In this document: positions 1 through 6,490 of the stretch, piece by piece
Position numbering within the stretch: the stretch's first letter is position 1
How the letters are laid out: each line of letters starts with the position of its first letter
Origin: Stenotrophomonas maltophilia
GTDB taxonomy: Bacteria > Pseudomonadota > Gammaproteobacteria > Xanthomonadales > Xanthomonadaceae
Assembly (NCBI GenBank): GCA_900113425.1
Contig: FOZF01000001.1
Coordinates: 1,218,358 to 1,282,357, forward strand
DNA length: 64,000 bases
Direction: 5' to 3'
The notes under the pieces: generated by a model
The model's input: only the letters and a program-made list of their open reading frames with translations
Told to the model about the DNA's origin: nothing
Databases searched by the model: none
Program-made: the position numbers and the translations under genes

Positions 1-523
1 CGGTGCGGTACCGCGCATCGATCATCGGCAGCACCTGTTCGGCAAGAAAGTCGCGATAGTGCGCGGCACCGCCATAGCTGACGTCATCACTGTATTCCCG
101 CGGATTGGTACGTGCCGGGTCGCTGGGCGTGTAGTCGCGCGAGCGGCTCTGCCTGGAGGTCAGCCCCTCCTGCGGCGGCAGCCCGACCAGGATGAAGTTT
201 TCGATGTTGACGCCCTGCTGGCTCACCATGTGTCGCACGCTGCGTACCAGCGGGAAGCTGTACAGCGCGTCGGTCACGTACAGTACCGGATAGCGCTTTT
301 TCGGATGTGCGGCGTAGTCGGCCGGCAACGCCACCCACACCGGGTAATCGCGGCCGACCGGATCGTGCACGCGCAGCGCCTCGGTATCCGGCAGCACCAC
401 ACCCGGCGCGACGGTAGACGCGCTCTGCTTTGCCTCACTCTGCGCCGCCGGTGGCGCCACCGACATCGCACAGCCACTTACGGCCAGACAGGCCGCCACA
501 CTCCATCCACGCACACGCTGCAT
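1..523 (-). CDS. Esterase-family lipoprotein (partial, C-terminus beyond window)
   Basis: The reverse strand is open from an ATG at 523 to the window edge (174 codons), so the C-terminal half is missing. The N-terminus is a lipoprotein signal: a short basic start, a hydrophobic stretch and the lipobox VSGC with the cysteine near residue 19. The mature part resembles the PF00756 esterase family (enterochelin-esterase/S-formylglutathione-hydrolase type): a strand reading KKRYPVLYVTDAL, then a loop with the YTPSDPARTNPREY segment and a YGGAAHYRDFLAEQVLPMID helix. The nucleophile serine would lie beyond the window, so activity cannot be judged. A decayed relative lies directly upstream on the same strand. 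The substrate is unknown; siderophore or xenobiotic ester cleavage are possibilities by family only. Confidence 0.75.
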   Translation of the reverse strand, partial: MQRVRGWSVAACLAVSGCAMSVAPPAAQSEAKQSASTVAPGVVLPDTEALRVHDPVGRDYPVWVALPADYAAHPKKRYPVLYVTDALYSFPLVRSVRHMVSQQGVNIENFILVGLPPQEGLTSRQSRSRDYTPSDPARTNPREYSDDVSYGGAAHYRDFLAEQVLPMIDARYRT

Positions 524-605
524 CTGCACACTCCCGTTACGGGCGGCGCACCGGATGGCGCCGCTGCCACATCCTTGCATGCGGTGCAAGCCGGTGCCAG
601 TGCGG

Positions 606-1120
606 TCAGGGCGAATCTGGCGGCGCGGGGAACAGCCTGCGCAGCGCCTGCAATGCGGCCGGGTGATAGATCGTGGCGTGGGTTTCCTCCGGCAGCGGCA
701 GGTACTTCACCAGCGGCGACGGCGATGCCTGTTGCAGCAACGTAGCCAGCTGCGCCGTGGAACTGGCCAGTTCCGGTTGCCCAGCGCTGGCCAGGAATAC
801 GCGTGGCCCTGCCTGCGTCACCGCCGGCAGCTGCGTGGCTGCGCCGGCCAGCAAGGTGCCACGGTTCCACCACAGGCTGGGATCGAGCGCGATGTAGCTG
901 TTGAACAGCGTCGGTTCCTGCAGCAGTGTCTCAACCACGAACAGGCCGGCCAGCGATTCGCCGATCAACGCACGCTCGTCGGTGGTCGGGTGCGCTGGCG
1001 CACCTGCGGCATCAGTTCATCGCGCAGGAAGGTGCGGTAGGCCGCCGAACCGCCGATGCGCGGCGCGATCCTCTGGTCCTGCGGGTCCTTGCTGGGGCCG
1101 GTCAGACGCCAACACCACGG
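606..1120 (-). pseudogene. Frameshifted, truncated alpha/beta-hydrolase (esterase) relic
   Basis: Two reading frames on the reverse strand together read as one esterase. The upstream piece (about 985-1120) carries LTGPSKDPQDQRIAP and GGSAAYRTFLRDELMPQV, then runs into a stop. One frame over, the downstream piece (606 to about 985) continues with TTDERALIGESLAGLFVVET and YIALDPSLWWN to a normal C-terminus. GESLAG is the nucleophile elbow. The join is best explained by a one-base loss near 985-990. No start or N-terminal half is recognisable upstream of about 1120, so the gene is also truncated. It belongs to the same broad family as the lipoprotein esterase that follows it, suggesting an old tandem pair. 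A sequencing error could explain the frameshift but not the missing N-terminus. Confidence 0.7.
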
Positions 1121-1654
1121 TAGTCGCAAATGCACCGATTCTCGAGGGTACGACTCGCAGGCCGTGCCACCACTGCAGGCGAATGTCACGTCCACTTTCC
1201 ACGCGACACATCACGGCATCGCCGCCACCACGGGCTGTTCTCGACAACGTCCAACGCGATAAGTCGGGCCTAAGCATCAACACGTCGCGTGCTGTCGCTT
1301 GCCGCATCAGATGCGCCTGCGTCACCATCGTCGCGCGTCTTGGTTCCGCATTTCTCTTCGGAGAATCCTCATTGAAATCCAGTCGCAGGCGTAAACACCA
1401 TGCAGCGCCACCGACAACGGGTGGCAGCGGGCCTGCAAGCCCGTGATGACTGTAAGCATGTTGTTTGCGCTCACCCACCGGCATTGTCTATGGACCATGC
1501 CGGTGGGTGATCCGTCGGCCTTCATGGCGGGCGGTGCGTGGGGGTCTTCGGATCCGCCGGTTAACTGCTTACTGTCATCCCGGCTTGCAGCCACGCATCG
1601 CCCGCCACCCGCTCTGCGCGGTGGCACGCCCACGACAGAGCCGAGGAAGCCGAG
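1121..1654. other. Gene-free stretch with one strong hairpin
   Basis: I see no convincing gene here. Open frames on both strands lack ribosome sites and family features. The stretch probably includes remains of the esterase N-terminus and the promoter of the gene starting at 1655. The one clear structure is the perfect hairpin at 1471-1510. Confidence 0.5.
1471..1510. repeat. Perfect 14-bp inverted repeat with 12-nt loop
   Basis: The arms TCACCCACCGGCAT (1471-1484) and ATGCCGGTGGGTGA (1497-1510) are exact reverse complements around a 12-base loop. No U-run follows on either strand, so it is not a typical terminator. It could be an operator, a relic of a dispersed palindrome or part of a small RNA. 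Confidence 0.8.
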
Positions 1655-2011
1655 ATGACCGAACGTCCGCCCTATGCTTCATACGCCGCCAGCATCGATG
1701 ATGACGACGACAACCCTTCGCCCGAACTGAGCACCTTCCTGGGCTGCCTGAAACGCATCCGCGCGGGTGAGGGTGCCGATGGCCTGCCCTGGCCTGAGGC
1801 CGACGTTTCCCCGGGGCGTGGGGTTGCCCTGTCGCGGGTGGAACGGGCTGCCGTCGGCCTGCTCACCGTGGCGGAAATGCTGCACACCGCCGACCGCTGC
1901 CGGGAAATGGCCACGCCGGACCGGCATCTGGACGCCGGGGTGGTGGAAGGGCTGTTCTTCGCCTGCCGCAGCCTGGCGGAACTGGTGTGCCGGGAGGTGC
2001 GGGCCGAGTAG
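1655..2011 (+). CDS. Small conserved-looking protein of unknown function
   Basis: This is a 118-residue protein that I do not recognise. A GAGGAAG ribosome site lies a few bases before the ATG, supporting the start. The N-terminal 40 residues are polar and acidic, with a run of five aspartates near residues 16-20. The C-terminal 60 residues look helical and amphipathic (RVERAAVGLLTVAEMLHTAD ... FFACRSLAELVCREV) and contain two cysteines. There is no signal peptide or membrane segment, so it is probably cytoplasmic. Codon use is ordinary for the host. It stands alone, with 74 bases before the next gene. Confidence 0.65.
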   Translation: MTERPPYASYAASIDDDDDNPSPELSTFLGCLKRIRAGEGADGLPWPEADVSPGRGVALSRVERAAVGLLTVAEMLHTADRCREMATPDRHLDAGVVEGLFFACRSLAELVCREVRAE

Positions 2012-2085
2012 CCCGCTGCCGCAAAGCGGTCCATACTCGGGCCGGACCGGTCCATCGTCATGTTCAAACCTACAAGGAGGTATGC

Positions 2086-2415
2086 ATGTTGAATGCAATG
2101 ATCGTCGCCGCACTGGCCGCAGGCCCAACCGCATCCGCACCGTATGCCGACTGCCTGCTCGCTAACCTCCAGCCCGGGCTGACCGACCATGCGGTGCAAC
2201 TGGTGCAGCAGGCCTGTGCCGCGAAGCATCCCGACAGCTTCGCTGCATCAGTGGAACTGGAGCGCAAATACAGCGTCCAACGGCAGGCGCAGTTCAGTGC
2301 GGATCGTGCCGCGGCAGAGCGGGCCGCGAACGCCGCCGCCCGCGCTGCGAATGTGGCTGCCACCGTGGCGGCGGAACGCGAGGCAGCAGAGGCCAAGGCT
2401 GCGACGGCGAAGTAG
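2086..2415 (+). CDS. Small alanine-rich, probably exported protein
   Basis: The start is fixed by a near-perfect ribosome site, AAGGAGG, five bases before an ATG followed by TTG-AAT. The 109-residue product opens with a short hydrophobic leader ending near ASAPYA that could be a signal peptide. A segment with two cysteines follows (YADCLLANLQPG ... VQQACAAKHP), then a long Ala/Glu/Arg helix with coiled-coil character to the end. This pattern occurs in many small periplasmic proteins of xanthomonads, but no named family could be assigned. The next gene, also exported, starts 58 bases downstream on the same strand, so the two may be co-transcribed. Confidence 0.65.
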   Translation: MLNAMIVAALAAGPTASAPYADCLLANLQPGLTDHAVQLVQQACAAKHPDSFAASVELERKYSVQRQAQFSADRAAAERAANAAARAANVAATVAAEREAAEAKAATAK

Positions 2416-2473
2416 CCTGCACAGGGCGCACAGAACGGCGTCCATCGATCGCTGTCCAAGAAAGGGAATTCCC

Positions 2474-2911
2474 ATGCAGATGAAGTCGCTTGCTTTCGGC
2501 ATCGCGCTGTTGACGAGTGTGTCTGTCGGCCCGGCACTGGTCGGTGCACAAGCCGCACCCGTGAAGGCGCGCACCACCGTGGAATCGCGGACGACCTGGC
2601 CGGCAGGCTCCGTCGAGGCCGCGTCCATTCTGGCGTGGGTCAAGGCCCGGTCTCCCGGATATGCGCCCATCACCTCTGGGGGAGATATCTCGATTGTCCG
2701 CAGGCAGATTGAGCCGCAGCCGCTGACTCGAACATCCAGCGACCCAACCGTGGAGTTGCCCGCCTCAGGGCGGCAGGGCGAGGCGATCACGGTCACGAGT
2801 CGCCAGGCAGATGGATCCATCGAAACCTGGGCCCATACAGGGATCGATAGCGGGTGGATGCTGGTTGAGTATCACTTCAAGCGCGGCTCCAGCCCCGAGA
2901 GCATGAAATAG
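2474..2911 (+). CDS. Exported protein of unknown function
   Basis: The product is 145 residues. The ATG at the chosen start is preceded by an AAAGGG ribosome site and opens a good Sec signal peptide (MQMKSLAFGIALLTSVSVG, cleavage near GAQA-AP). The mature part is basic and mostly beta-prone, without cysteines, and ends FKRGSSPESMK. Segments such as AITVTSRQADGSIETWAHTG suggest a small beta domain, but I recognise no family. It follows another small exported protein on the same strand. Function unknown; a periplasmic location is inferred from the leader. Confidence 0.65.
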   Translation: MQMKSLAFGIALLTSVSVGPALVGAQAAPVKARTTVESRTTWPAGSVEAASILAWVKARSPGYAPITSGGDISIVRRQIEPQPLTRTSSDPTVELPASGRQGEAITVTSRQADGSIETWAHTGIDSGWMLVEYHFKRGSSPESMK

Positions 2912-3076
2912 TCCAGTTCCGCTTTGCGCTCCCGTACGGCCTTGGGAATGTTCCGCGATCTGCGCCGGATTTTCGTCCAGCAACGCCGCTCCATGCCGCA
3001 CGTGCATCAAAACAGGCCGCCGCAGCGTTGACTATGCGGTGTTAGGATTCGAGCCACCTGTCCAGGACCCAACCGT

Positions 3077-3193
3077 ATGAGCAGCTTCAGCTTCTGGCAT
3101 TGGATGATCGTGCTTGCGGCCGTACTGATCCCGGCCGGGATCGCCGCTGTCCTTGCCTATGTGCTGTCCCGAAGCCAGAAAGTGAAGTCGTGA
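3077..3193 (+). CDS. 38-residue single-pass membrane microprotein with TatA-like N-terminus
   Basis: A short frame encodes MSSFSFWHWMIVLAAVLIPA followed by GIAAVLAYVLSRSQKVKS. It is one membrane helix with a basic tail (R, K, K), predicting N-out/C-in topology. The first 13 residues closely resemble the start of proteobacterial TatA (GSFSIWHWLIVL), but the FG hinge, amphipathic helix and acidic tail of TatA are absent. The FSxWHW module also opens other small membrane proteins in this family of bacteria. No strong ribosome site is visible, so the call rests on the composition and the match. It lies just outside the tRNA-Lys cassette boundary. Confidence 0.55.
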   Translation: MSSFSFWHWMIVLAAVLIPAGIAAVLAYVLSRSQKVKS

Positions 3194-3302
3194 GCGACAG
3201 GCAATCGTCTGCCCATGCAAGGTCTGCGGGTAGCCGCAGAATGGGCGCAGATGGAGAATGAAGCGCGTTGCCCCTGCTCATGAGGCGGAGGACGATCCAA
3301 AG

Positions 3303-3326
3303 AAAAAGGCGCCCCGAAGGACGCCT
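3303..3326 (-). terminator. Rho-independent terminator next to the tRNA-Lys fragment
   Basis: On the reverse strand GGCGTCC-TTCG-GGGCGCC is followed by TTTTT. It is a variant copy of the terminator behind the intact tRNA-Lys (5224-5246), and the spacing to the tRNA sequence is similar. Confidence 0.75.
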
Positions 3327-3342
3327 AAGTCTTTGAGTGCAA

Positions 3343-3387
3343 TGGTGGGCCGTGTAGGATTCGAACCTACGACCAAAAGATCAAAAG
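3343..3387 (-). pseudogene. 3' fragment of tRNA-Lys (putative attachment-site copy)
   Basis: These 45 bases match the 3' part of the intact tRNA-Lys: CCA end, acceptor 3' strand, T arm, variable loop and part of the anticodon arm. The match ends abruptly in the anticodon stem and the 5' half is absent. There are two substitutions in the T stem, and they compensate each other: GTAGG/CCTAC here against GAAGG/CCTTC in the intact gene. The arm therefore still pairs. Such a duplicated tRNA 3' end is the usual scar of a site-specific integrated element. Confidence 0.85.
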
Positions 3388-3662
3388 AAGGCTTGCGACT
3401 CCTTTGAAAACAACCGGGTGCGCCGCTCTATTTTTCCGCCCGCCGAACGTGGAACCATTGCCGATCCTAAGCTCACTCGACAATTTTTCCGCCGTCTCAA
3501 GGGATATACACGGGGTCCACGACCAAGGTTCCACCGTTTGACGCCGGTTACCGAGCCACTGGTGAACTGGTGTGCCGCGACGTGCGACCATCGTGAGCGT
3601 GCGGGCGGGAACGGCAATGAAAAAGGCGCCCAGCGGGCGCCTCCTCACAATCCAGCGGCAAA
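3388..3662. other. Cassette interior without recognisable gene
   Basis: Between the tRNA fragment and the NmrA-like gene I find no gene with a ribosome site or family match. This is where an integrase might be expected next to the attachment site, but no tyrosine-recombinase motif (R...HxxR...Y) was seen in any frame. The bases look less GC-rich than the flanks. A terminator for the NmrA-like gene lies at 3619-3642. Confidence 0.5.
3619..3642 (-). terminator. Terminator of the NmrA-like gene
   Basis: On the reverse strand GGCGCCC-GCT-GGGCGCC is followed by TTTTTC, about 20 bases past the stop codon of the NmrA-like gene. Confidence 0.8.
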
Positions 3663-4607
3663 TCAGGAGCGCTGCACGTTGGAATCCAGCCACGCCTGCA
3701 CGCCCTGTAGCTCGGCCCCGATCTTCGCATTGAAGGTTCGCTCCACATCCCACGCAACGCCCCTCCCTTGGGCAAAGGCCGCGCGATACTTCTTTATCAT
3801 GTTGCCCGGGTCGTTAGCCAGTTCCTGCATGAGCTGGGGTACGCCCCAGATCACCAGCTCGAAAGGTTCCCCGAACGCCTTCTGCAGAATATCCGGAAGG
3901 TCACCGTAGCGGATGGTATCGCCTGCCAGATACACGATCTCGTTGCGGATCGCAGGTGCGTGGAACACGATGCGCGCTGTCATTGCGCCGATGTCATCCG
4001 GCGTGGTCAGGGTGACAGCATTGCTCGCCGAGCCCAACGCGTTCACTTTATGCCCAACCAGGTCGACCACCCCGAAGTCCGGCTCGAAGAGGTAACTGGT
4101 GAACATTCCAGTAGAGATGATCACCCAGTCCATCGCAGTCTGCGAACGCAGATACTCGCGTACGTCCAGCTGGGCATCGAACAGGTCCTGGGGACCACCG
4201 CGCCCAATGGCATCGAAATCGACACCGAACTGCCAAGGAAAGTAGCGGGGAATACCCGACTTCACCGCCGCACGCGCAACCTTCATTGGCGTATCGCGGC
4301 CTGCGGCATAGCCGGTGCATCCAATCACTGTGTCAAACTGCGCAAAGGTAGCCGCCAACGCCTCTACCGATTCAGTCACCAGATCACCAGCAACGATATT
4401 CACCCCCAAGGCGCGGATTTCATCGACCACCCGCTGCTTCTCCGGCAGTTCTGAGTCAATCGACGTCGCCCGTAGCATCACACTGATCCGTGTGCCTGGA
4501 TGACTTACGGCCAAACGTGCAAGGTTCCGGATGACAGGCATTCCAAGCTCGCCTGCGCCGAGCACCAGGATCGACCGAGAGGGGGTAGTGCTGATATGAG
4601 ATGACAT
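3663..4607 (-). CDS. NmrA-family NAD(P)-binding reductase-like protein
   Basis: The 314-residue product has a Rossmann fold at the N-terminus: ILVLGAGELGMPVIRNLA fits the GxGxxG dinucleotide signature of the atypical short-chain dehydrogenases (NmrA / isoflavone-reductase-like group). Further family marks are DTVIGCTGYAAG after the fourth strand and the GIPRYFPWQFGVD segment, equivalent to the VkRFxPSEFG motif of aromatic alcohol reductases. It is probably a cytoplasmic oxidoreductase or redox sensor; the substrate is unknown. The start at MSSHIS was preferred because the frame upstream runs into the promoter shared with the divergent HxlR gene. The gene lies inside the tRNA-Lys cassette. NmrA-like/HxlR divergent pairs are common, with the regulator controlling the enzyme. 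Confidence 0.85.
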   Translation of the reverse strand: MSSHISTTPSRSILVLGAGELGMPVIRNLARLAVSHPGTRISVMLRATSIDSELPEKQRVVDEIRALGVNIVAGDLVTESVEALAATFAQFDTVIGCTGYAAGRDTPMKVARAAVKSGIPRYFPWQFGVDFDAIGRGGPQDLFDAQLDVREYLRSQTAMDWVIISTGMFTSYLFEPDFGVVDLVGHKVNALGSASNAVTLTTPDDIGAMTARIVFHAPAIRNEIVYLAGDTIRYGDLPDILQKAFGEPFELVIWGVPQLMQELANDPGNMIKKYRAAFAQGRGVAWDVERTFNAKIGAELQGVQAWLDSNVQRS

Positions 4608-4680
4608 GGAAATCGCCCTGTGTGTGTACGATGGCGGCGATTCTGCTCGCCTACTGGCCCACACGTAAGAAGGCACATCG
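4608..4680. promoter_or_regulatory. Divergent promoter region between NmrA-like gene and HxlR regulator
   Basis: These 73 bases separate two divergent starts and must hold both promoters and, by analogy with other HxlR pairs, the operator. No certain -35/-10 pair or operator could be fixed by eye. Confidence 0.5.
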
Positions 4681-5106
4681 ATGATACCGACCGCACCGTT
4701 CATGAGTCCGGAAGAACTGCTAAGGCACTCTCAAGCCATATGCGACGGGATGAGCGAGGACGAAGATGGACTGCGCCGAGAGGTTTTAGCGCACGCTGGT
4801 AGCCGCTGGTCCCTGGGCATCATCCATGCGCTTGGCGTGTATGGAACGCTGCGTCATGCCGAGGTCGCACGACGGATGAAGGGGATCACCCAGCGCATGC
4901 TTACGCGCACCCTCCGGCAATTGGAACGTGACGGGTTGATCAGCCGGGAGGATTTCCACGAAGTACCGCCACATGTGGAGTACAGCATCACAGCGCTGGG
5001 CAAGGACCTTCTTGTACTGATGATTCCCATGTGGACATGGGTAGTGGCTCATGCGGAGGAATTCCGCCAATGTCGGCAGAATTTTGATTCTTCAGACGGG
5101 AAATGA
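4681..5106 (+). CDS. HxlR-family winged-helix transcriptional regulator
   Basis: The 141-residue protein carries the HxlR (PF01638) winged helix. GSRWSLGIIHALGVYGTLRHAEVARRMKGITQRMLTRTLRQLERDGLI is the recognition region, and EVPPHVEYSITALGKDL is the beta-wing with its characteristic V-Y-T/S-L-T-G-like turn. An N-terminal extension of about 35 residues precedes the domain. Such regulators are dimers that sense aldehydes, quinones or redox state and usually control the divergent neighbour, here the NmrA-like reductase. Nothing in the sequence identifies the inducer. One cysteine near residue 22 and one near 131 could take part in sensing, which is inference only. Confidence 0.88.
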   Translation: MIPTAPFMSPEELLRHSQAICDGMSEDEDGLRREVLAHAGSRWSLGIIHALGVYGTLRHAEVARRMKGITQRMLTRTLRQLERDGLISREDFHEVPPHVEYSITALGKDLLVLMIPMWTWVVAHAEEFRQCRQNFDSSDGK

Positions 5107-5223
5107 AGATGCACTTTCCGTTCCACGGGATCGCCGAAGGTGACGATGAACTGCCGGTGGTTCAACCGCCCGGAAGGAGGAACGCACTTGAGCGTGGATC
5201 CACTTAATTTTTCCGGAGACACG

Positions 5224-5246
5224 AAAAAGGCGCCGCAAGGGCGCCT
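5224..5246 (-). terminator. Terminator of tRNA-Lys
   Basis: On the reverse strand GGCGCC-CTTGC-GGCGCC is followed by TTTTT, 17 bases beyond the CCA end of the tRNA. The copy at 3303-3326 is its duplicate. Confidence 0.8.
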
Positions 5247-5262
5247 AAGTCGTTGATGCAAT

Positions 5263-5338
5263 TGGTGGGCCGTGAAGGATTCGAACCTTCGACCAAAAGA
5301 TTAAAAGTCTTCTGCTCTACCGACTGAGCTAACGGCCC
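5263..5338 (-). tRNA. tRNA-Lys (anticodon UUU)
   Basis: The reverse strand folds as a 76-base tRNA. The acceptor GGGCCGT pairs with ACGGCCC and ends in ACCA. The D arm is GCTC...GAGC, the anticodon loop is CTTTTAA with TTT in the centre, and the T arm is GAAGG-TTCGAAT-CCTTC. CCA is encoded. The gene is followed by its own terminator and forms the tRNA side of a cassette whose far end carries a partial copy of this gene. Confidence 0.97.
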
Positions 5339-5513: not shown

Positions 5514-6470
5514 ATGCGCCGCTGCCTGCCCCTGATCGTCGCACTGCTGTTGCCCGGCGCCGCGCTGGCAGCGCCAGCCCCGGTGCGTAGCGACGACATC
5601 GACCGCTTCTGGGCGACCTACGATGCCGTGCGCATCGAAGCGGATGCCGACCGCCGCGTCGCGCTCGTGCAGCAGCGCTACGTTGACCCGGGCAGTCCCG
5701 GCCTGCATGCGCTGATGCAGGTCCGCAATTACACCGCGCGCGAGTATGCCGAGGCCATGCGCGCGTGGCCGCGCTTCTGGAACTCGGTAAGGCCACTGAC
5801 GGCCAACGCCCGCAGTGCCAGCGCGACGCTCGAACACGATCTCATGGCCTTCCGCACGCTCTACCCCGCCCTGCGCCCGGCCACGATCACCTATGCGGTG
5901 GGCGTGCTGCGTACCGGCGGTACCACGCTGGGCGACCAGGTGCTGATCGGTGCGGAGATGGCACTGGGCGACGAGGGCGTGGATGTCAGCGAACTGCCGG
6001 AGCCGATGCGCAGTCGCCTGCGCATCTTCTATGACAGCCGCCCCGGCGCGAACAACGCGCAGAACAACCTGCATGAGTATGTGCACACCCAGCAACGCGA
6101 GACCACCGGCAATCTGGCCCAGTACGTAGCGCGCGAAGGCGTGGCCGAGTACATCGCCGAGCGCATCAGCGGCAAGCGCCCTGCCCTGCCGCTCTATGCC
6201 TACGGCCCGTTGCACGAAGCGGAGATACGCACCCGGTTCATCGCCGAGATGGACGGCGATGACATGGGCAACTGGCTGTACAACAGTGCCCGCAATCCGT
6301 TCGGCGTGAGCGACATCGGCTACTACGCCGGCTATCGCATCGCGCAGGAATACATGCGGCAGCAGCCGGATGAGAAGGCAGGGATCGCGCGGATGATCGA
6401 GCTGGACTACGCCGATCCGAAGGCGGTGCGGGCCTTCATCGAGGCTTCGGGTTGGTTGCAGCAGCGGTAG
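5514..6470 (+). CDS. Exported HExxH protein (DUF2268-like putative zinc protease)
   Basis: The 318-residue product opens with a clean signal peptide (MRRCLPLIVALLLPGAALAA). The chosen ATG has a GGAG site before it, and the longer frame upstream lies in tRNA flank. The mature protein carries HEYVH (residues 187-191) and a glutamate in EGVAEYIAE (E208), a gluzincin-type HExxH...E zinc set. The context NNLHEYVHTQQ and the later YAGYRIAQEYM resemble the DUF2268/GldB-like putative protease group, but substrate and activity are unknown. It is probably periplasmic. Its stop codon TAG is the TAG of a SMAG palindrome that abuts the gene. Confidence 0.75.
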   Translation: MRRCLPLIVALLLPGAALAAPAPVRSDDIDRFWATYDAVRIEADADRRVALVQQRYVDPGSPGLHALMQVRNYTAREYAEAMRAWPRFWNSVRPLTANARSASATLEHDLMAFRTLYPALRPATITYAVGVLRTGGTTLGDQVLIGAEMALGDEGVDVSELPEPMRSRLRIFYDSRPGANNAQNNLHEYVHTQQRETTGNLAQYVAREGVAEYIAERISGKRPALPLYAYGPLHEAEIRTRFIAEMDGDDMGNWLYNSARNPFGVSDIGYYAGYRIAQEYMRQQPDEKAGIARMIELDYADPKAVRAFIEASGWLQQR

Positions 6471-6490
6471 CGCCGGGCCATGCCCGGCGC
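6467..6490 (+). repeat. SMAG (GTAG) palindrome overlapping a stop codon
   Basis: GTAG is followed by CGCCGGGC-CAT-GCCCGGCG, the signature of S. maltophilia GTAG repeats. The TAG is also the stop codon of the HExxH protein gene. Confidence 0.85.

Follow-up and report, generated by a model that had tools for sequence, protein, structure and literature searches.

How does a pair of genes, in a cassette of ~1.9 kb without an integrase gene of its own, come to lie between an intact tRNA-Lys gene and a second copy of that gene's 3' end? The question is raised by the window analysed here, a stretch of 64,000 nucleotides on contig C8 of Stenotrophomonas genome G000, to which all unprefixed coordinates below refer. 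A first-pass annotation proposed integrase-mediated insertion and offered three origins for the cassette: a decayed island, a mini-element mobilised in trans, or a deletion product of a larger island.

Organisation of the cassette

The only tRNA that ARAGORN finds in the window is a tRNA-Lys(TTT) on the minus strand (5263-5338). Its 3' end is paired with a second copy as an 84-nt direct repeat (3304-3387 versus 5224-5307; 81% identical ungapped, and 90% gapped with E = 6.6e-23 in a whole-genome search), so that the duplication in the same orientation reported at first pass is upheld. The repeat has one boundary at the anticodon loop and runs from there to the 3' end of the tRNA and on through the downstream terminator. 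The 3' half of the intact gene, which is the attachment site, has the T-stem AAGG..CCTT and adjoins an element-borne terminator (5224-5247, minus strand); the displaced 3' half (3343-3387, minus strand), which is the distal attachment site, has the T-stem TAGG..CCTA, with a further terminator of the element type beyond it (3304-3328, minus strand). Neither terminator is like the native one of empty sites. The T-stem TAGG..CCTA is also that of tRNA-Lys in the same-species genome G083. A candidate third, degenerate tRNA copy at 3045 was discarded, being a single 13-nt match only.

The two genes between the copies are those of the first-pass annotation. An NmrA-family NAD(P)-binding reductase of 313 residues is encoded on the minus strand from the ATG at 4604 (3663-4604; PF05368, 7.4e-19 on a longer reading frame), and its Pfam score of 68.9 bits against a gathering score of 27 places it within the family. 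Divergent from it is a regulator of the HxlR family (4681-5106, plus strand; PF01638, 2.1e-23). Sequence inspection reveals a terminator-like stem, of repeat family D5, after the NmrA gene (3619-3642, minus strand). A search with the phrog_1 profile finds no integrase inside the window insert.

The reductase gene appears to be functional. Read from 4604 it has no stops in any of the five copies; the G083 gene was considered as a pseudogene and the idea rejected, the reported stop falling upstream of the likely start. The ratio dN/dS between the window and G083 is ~0.07, which indicates that function has been kept and that the cargo, reductase and divergent regulator, is under purifying selection. 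The nearest PDB entries are isoflavone-type and eugenol-type reductases of plants, and plasmid relatives in PLSDB are annotated as 'aromatic alcohol reductase' and lie beside a helix-turn-helix gene; our guess is that the enzyme acts on an aromatic or carbonyl compound of a reactive kind. The best PDB alignment of the HxlR protein is with chain 1yyv_A, which we take to be Salmonella YtfH. Redox sensors of the HxlR type have a conserved Cys ahead of the winged helix, and the cassette protein lacks it, the Cys-Pro of 1yyv_A being replaced by Gly-Leu; it belongs to the HxlR family without this mark of a redox sensor.

Base composition, which the first-pass annotation suggested comparing with the flanks, sets the insert apart. 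The GC content of 3388-5223 is 58.5%, against 65.1% for 1-3302 and 67.0% for 5339-64000, and ranks second among 622 windows of the same size; third-position GC is 0.63-0.70 in the NmrA and HxlR genes and 0.85-0.90 in queC, queE, ybgF and tolB. Some 270 bases of the cassette had been described as GC-poor and unassigned. The low GC is confirmed for the insert, but these bases can be assigned, as they form an attachment arm (below).

Two other features of the window lie outside the cassette. The native left flank is separated from the displaced tRNA copy by a segment of ~0.9 kb (2416-3302), absent from the empty sites compared, that ends in an element-type terminator; within it, part of 2912-3302 resembles left-flank DNA of other strains. 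The segment is probably what is left of an earlier insertion into this tRNA gene. A short sequence at 6461-6490, present in more than 60 copies on both strands of the genome, is probably a REP-type element.

The attachment site across the genus

We surveyed 91 Stenotrophomonas genomes, one of which, G083, is of the window's species. The tRNA 3' half is present in 89 of the 91 (pattern search, at most 3 mismatches), and at least two copies, 1.3 to 51 kb apart, lie on one contig in 24; G011 adds a more diverged second copy, giving duplicated 3' ends in 25/91 genomes, a count that leaves out G078, in which the copies are on two contigs. The tRNA-Lys site is an integration hotspot. Empty sites with a single tRNA are seen at L009, L010, L014 and L017 and in G084, G076, G080 and G112, the empty state having been read at these named loci, a subset of the single-copy genomes. 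Their order is the tRNA, the native terminator and then homologues of the window's left flank.

Filled sites L011, L012, L018, L020 and L024 have the native terminator on the displaced copy and an element terminator on the intact gene, which is the classical outcome of integration at a tRNA 3' end. In all nine genomes with inserts longer than 20 kb, a tyrosine integrase (phrog_1) is part of the insert; among 16 genomes with small inserts this is so in G114 only. The NmrA/HxlR pair is found in five of the 91 genomes, namely G000, G083, G033 (LMG 978), G079 (Sm46PAILV) and G098, each time at the tRNA-Lys site and between flanking tRNA copies. Homologues elsewhere are at most 76% identical, and the pair was rejected as a fixed native locus; a family-wide search of 297 genomes gave no further close copy outside the genus (best match 80%). 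Insertion by an integrase, as first proposed, is thus backed by the presence of empty sites, by the integrases in long inserts and by the restricted distribution of the pair. The first-pass annotation had foreseen both empty sites with a single tRNA-Lys 3' end and terminator and longer inserts with an integrase, and had named fixation of both tRNA copies and the pair in all relatives as the contrary outcome, which the survey does not bear out.

Several other occupied sites deserve mention. In G108 (C140:10500-95136) three tRNA-Lys 3' copies surround a tandem of two inserts, one of 44 kb and one of 40 kb, and both have an integrase. In G100 (C1:3298459-3340186) and G011 (L134:14340 and 19034) the intact and displaced T-stems are of different types, as in the window, and integration may have replaced the 3' half of the host tRNA there too. 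Elsewhere in the window's own genome (C8:1745033-1746480), a tRNA 78% alike to the query adjoins an intact tyrosine integrase gene (phrog_1, 2.9e-63), apparently a second, live tRNA-borne element.

The ends of the cassette resemble phage attachment arms

The parentage of the cassette is suggested by a prophage at the same tRNA-Lys gene in D457 (L016, G085). Here a 35.4-kb insert with a portal and a gpP-like terminase includes an intact integrase of 398 residues that ends beside the tRNA; neither Pfam nor NCBIfam recognises this protein, but PHROGs does (phrog_1, 4.5e-27), and it is 53% identical to the integrase of the P2-like phage Smp131, listed under Peduoviridae. Close relatives of this integrase also lie beside tRNA-Lys in G069 and G094. 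In the window, 5142-5207 on the plus strand encodes the last 21 residues of such a tyrosine integrase, DDELPVVQPPGRRNALERGST followed by a stop, with 18 of 20 residues identical to positions 378-397 of the D457 protein (E = 2.4e-6 against the whole window). The first-pass statement that no integrase is visible therefore holds for the full gene and fails for this tail of 21 codons. About 75 integrase codons, with a frameshift, are kept in LMG 978 and Sm46PAILV.

On the left side the attachment arm spans 3388-3618, and over 3300-3542 the window resembles the left end of the insert in G036 at 72%. Both arms carry the arm-type site ATTTTTCCG on the plus strand: at 3430-3438 (offset +83 from the distal GGGCC) and 3483-3491 (+136) on the left, and at 5207-5215 (-60) on the right. 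These three are the only occurrences in the 64 kb of the window, where 0.18 are expected from shuffling. Measured from the tRNA core, the sites of G036 and G069 lie at +83 and +136 on the left and at -72 and -60 on the right; D457 has only the right pair at exact offsets, some of the sites are found in G094, G068 and G067, G068 has one stray site elsewhere, and G011 has none. The cassettes keep +83, +136 and -60, apart from one changed left site in G098, and lack the -72 repeat that intact prophages have, which leaves one right-arm site of two in all seven cassette copies. A junction of 31 nt (5111-5141) separates the HxlR gene and the body of the cassette from the integrase tail.

We conclude, from these sequence comparisons, that the ends of the cassette correspond to the attachment arms of a P2-like phage with specificity for tRNA-Lys. 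The integrase and arm type of such a prophage survives only as a remnant, the 21-codon tail and three arm sites, and in place of structural and replication genes there are only NmrA and HxlR. An intact phage with the pair inside its own genome was looked for and none was found, the 'phages' collection giving one match to the gene pair, at 64.5%; the 'plasmids' collection gives 44 records at 60-80%.

The 8.7-kb insert of G036 has both ends in common with the cassette and carries a different cargo, a PIN-domain protein (L118:16668-18224; PIN_8, 1.3e-48) that is possibly a defence gene.

Probable transfer between species

The window insert is 99.5% identical to that of Sm46PAILV over 1723 nt, and the right flank is 79% identical. 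Values of dS for this comparison are 0.009 for NmrA and 0.021 for HxlR, against 0.36 for queC, 0.37 for queE, 0.26 for ybgF, 0.12 for pal, 0.31 for tolB and 0.70 for a putative protease gene. Against the same-species G083 the order is reversed, with 0.151 for NmrA, 0.042 for HxlR and 0.05-0.12 for the six neighbours, and we conclude that the window cassette most likely came from outside its species. No such signature is seen in another shared small insert, that of G022 and G075 (insert 94.4% identical, flank 92.6%), which looks vertically inherited.

The limits of the foreign sequence are sharp. It starts after the native TAGG T-stem of the displaced copy and ends before the 5' end of the tRNA, so that the intact gene has the foreign AAGG T-stem; the DNA just past the tRNA 5' end is like that of G083 and unlike that of Sm46PAILV. 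The left neighbour of the cassette varies, being native DNA in LMG 978 and G098, the remnant of another integrase in Sm46PAILV, a similar end in G083 and a third kind of end in one metagenome contig, and yet the junction falls at one tRNA position in all copies.

A different account would make the cassette an old, immobile prophage remnant, 1.9 kb of which was exchanged between strains, after transformation or transduction, by homologous recombination that made use of the repeated tRNA pieces for its crossovers. It is consistent with the state of the integrase, a tail or a frameshifted remnant in every copy examined, and with our finding no D457-type integrase in any of the five cassette genomes, where the cassette is, for the same reason, probably stuck at present. 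It also suits the T-arms, which match each other in five of the six copies with both tRNA ends visible, the window being the only mismatch. Such matching is not what would be expected of simple capture from a donor with another type of T-arm, and gene conversion or donors of the same type must then be common. Recombination would, however, need two crossovers inside tracts of ~45 nt, and the high identity with Sm46PAILV does not extend past the tRNA on the left, the DNA there being unrelated in the donor-like genome, and gives way to native sequence just beyond the tRNA 5' end on the right. The identical junction beside several different left neighbours also speaks against it, and overall we judge this account fairly unlikely.

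Tandem arrangement with a phage and a hybrid right end

IMG/VR contains two contigs with close copies of the cassette, at 96.1% and 95.7%, to which our comparison is confined; seven further loci are at 63-76%. Both contigs run from the cassette through a tRNA 3' half into the left end of a phage with arm sites of its own, and as both are partial metagenome assemblies the far end of neither phage is in view. One of these left ends shares 116 of 125 positions with the left end of the prophage in G069, and a phage portal gene follows ~2.7 kb further along the contig, in a stretch 83% alike to D457. The phage-side DNA adjoining the cassette on an IMG/VR contig also includes an autotransporter gene of 802 residues (L250:333-2741).

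The right end of the window cassette (5142-5266) differs from G036 at 5 of 125 positions and from D457 at 7, against 16-19 for the six other cassette copies. Body and right end thus have different histories, and the right end is, by this comparison, of phage type. It need not be wholly phage-derived, since the missing arm repeat is common to the window and the other cassettes.

Proposed route

Taken together, the sequence evidence favours, with a probability of roughly 0.7, a cargo-only cassette between attachment sites of a tRNA-Lys-specific P2-like phage, which entered as a passenger on phage integration and from which the phage was later deleted. As its anatomy indicates, an ancestral phage-type element would have been reduced to two ends, an integrase tail and the NmrA/HxlR pair. 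With both arms and the tRNA core kept, a related phage integrase could treat the cassette as an integrated element and mobilise it by itself or, as seems more probable, linked to a phage inserted beside it in the same tRNA. Cassette and phage would then be excised, packaged and transferred as one block, by site-specific accretion. On arrival in the window's tRNA-Lys, the foreign copy would have brought its own 3' half and displaced the 3' end of native type, as the T-stems indicate, and the carrier phage would subsequently have been deleted, its integrase tail becoming joined to the cassette body. Accretion followed by phage loss is the simplest account of these observations, and the most likely one.

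The three origins first offered are, from this perspective, not exclusive. Derivation by deletion is favoured by the integrase tail left behind, and decay into an immobile island does not fit a unit that appears to have passed from one species to another when its integrase was already lost. Mobility without an integrase, and ends conserved among copies, could also suggest a self-sufficient mini-element with a recombination function that escapes recognition, such as a small protein or RNA specified by its ends; we think this very improbable, as the only two plausible genes are of ordinary metabolic and regulatory families and the ends are accounted for as phage arms. Tandem duplication of tRNA-Lys with partial deletion, the gene pair lying between by chance, would explain two 3' ends in the same orientation and has a parallel in two other tRNA-like matches ~240 bases apart on contig C6, but is contradicted by the single tRNA of empty sites, the repeat boundary, which falls at the anticodon loop in those occupied sites that we examined, the phage arms at both ends and the intact prophages at the same place, and can be dismissed.

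Comparison with known systems

The nearest parallel to a passenger of this kind is the cis-mobilizable element (CIME), which has lost its integration and transfer genes, keeps both attachment sites and, by accretion with ICEs or IMEs, forms tandem arrays at a single tRNA 3' end; PMC5704250 describes how such elements are transferred together with a functional element in the same tandem. The cassette similarly keeps both attachment sites, with a copy of the tRNA core and arm-type sequence at either end, and its only two genes are for neither integration nor transfer. In the two IMG/VR contigs the cassette adjoins the left end of a phage that may be functional, whereas the window has no such partner. 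As for mobilisation, the comparison of dS values provides the sequence footprint of a past transfer. The cassette differs in its size (~1.9 kb, two cargo genes) and in that its relative is a P2-like phage rather than an ICE or IME. As the integrase remnant is that of a P2-like phage, and not of an ICE or IME reduced by deletion, the cassette, on this analogy, would work like a CIME but is not one in the strict sense.

At the ssrA gene of Dehalococcoides, 15 islands without integration genes lie between copies of one RNA-gene end and have been proposed as possible cis-mobilizable elements, according to the available text of PMC3146451. Their target is a tmRNA and their enzyme a serine recombinase, rather than tRNA-Lys and a tyrosine integrase, and the portion of that account available to us includes no tandem with a phage such as is seen for the cassette.

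In Smp131, as described in PMC3931495, the likely arm sites are a pair of direct repeats, AATTTTACCGG, that follow the integrase, and none were found on the other arm; P2-like xanthomonad prophages target tRNA 3' ends, with tRNA-Lys used in related Xanthomonas prophages. The repeats are close to the ATTTTTCCGG of the cassette, but Smp131 targets tRNA-Thr and has repeats on one arm, whereas the cassette occupies tRNA-Lys, has them on both arms and lacks any phage structural gene. Our literature search, whose scope took in few of the subscription journals, found no account of the cassette or of a phage-cassette tandem at the tRNA-Lys site.

Implications

Islands that lack an integrase are usually dismissed as fossils. 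The cassette is an integrase-less unit that apparently crossed a species border and is seen in tandem with a phage of matching specificity, and this tandem suggests a route, open to direct testing, by which two genes on less than 2 kb of DNA could be moved. Integrations of this kind swap the 3' half and terminator of the host tRNA, and a T-arm mismatch between the intact and displaced copies may be read as a mark of foreign insertion. More tentatively, P2-like phages may act as a gene-capture system that has no capture gene, in which arm-only cassettes line up beside a phage in tRNA-Lys, move with it as a block and stay in the new species after the phage is lost. If so, the fifteen integrase-less inserts among the 16 small ones would be a pool of cassettes rather than graveyards.
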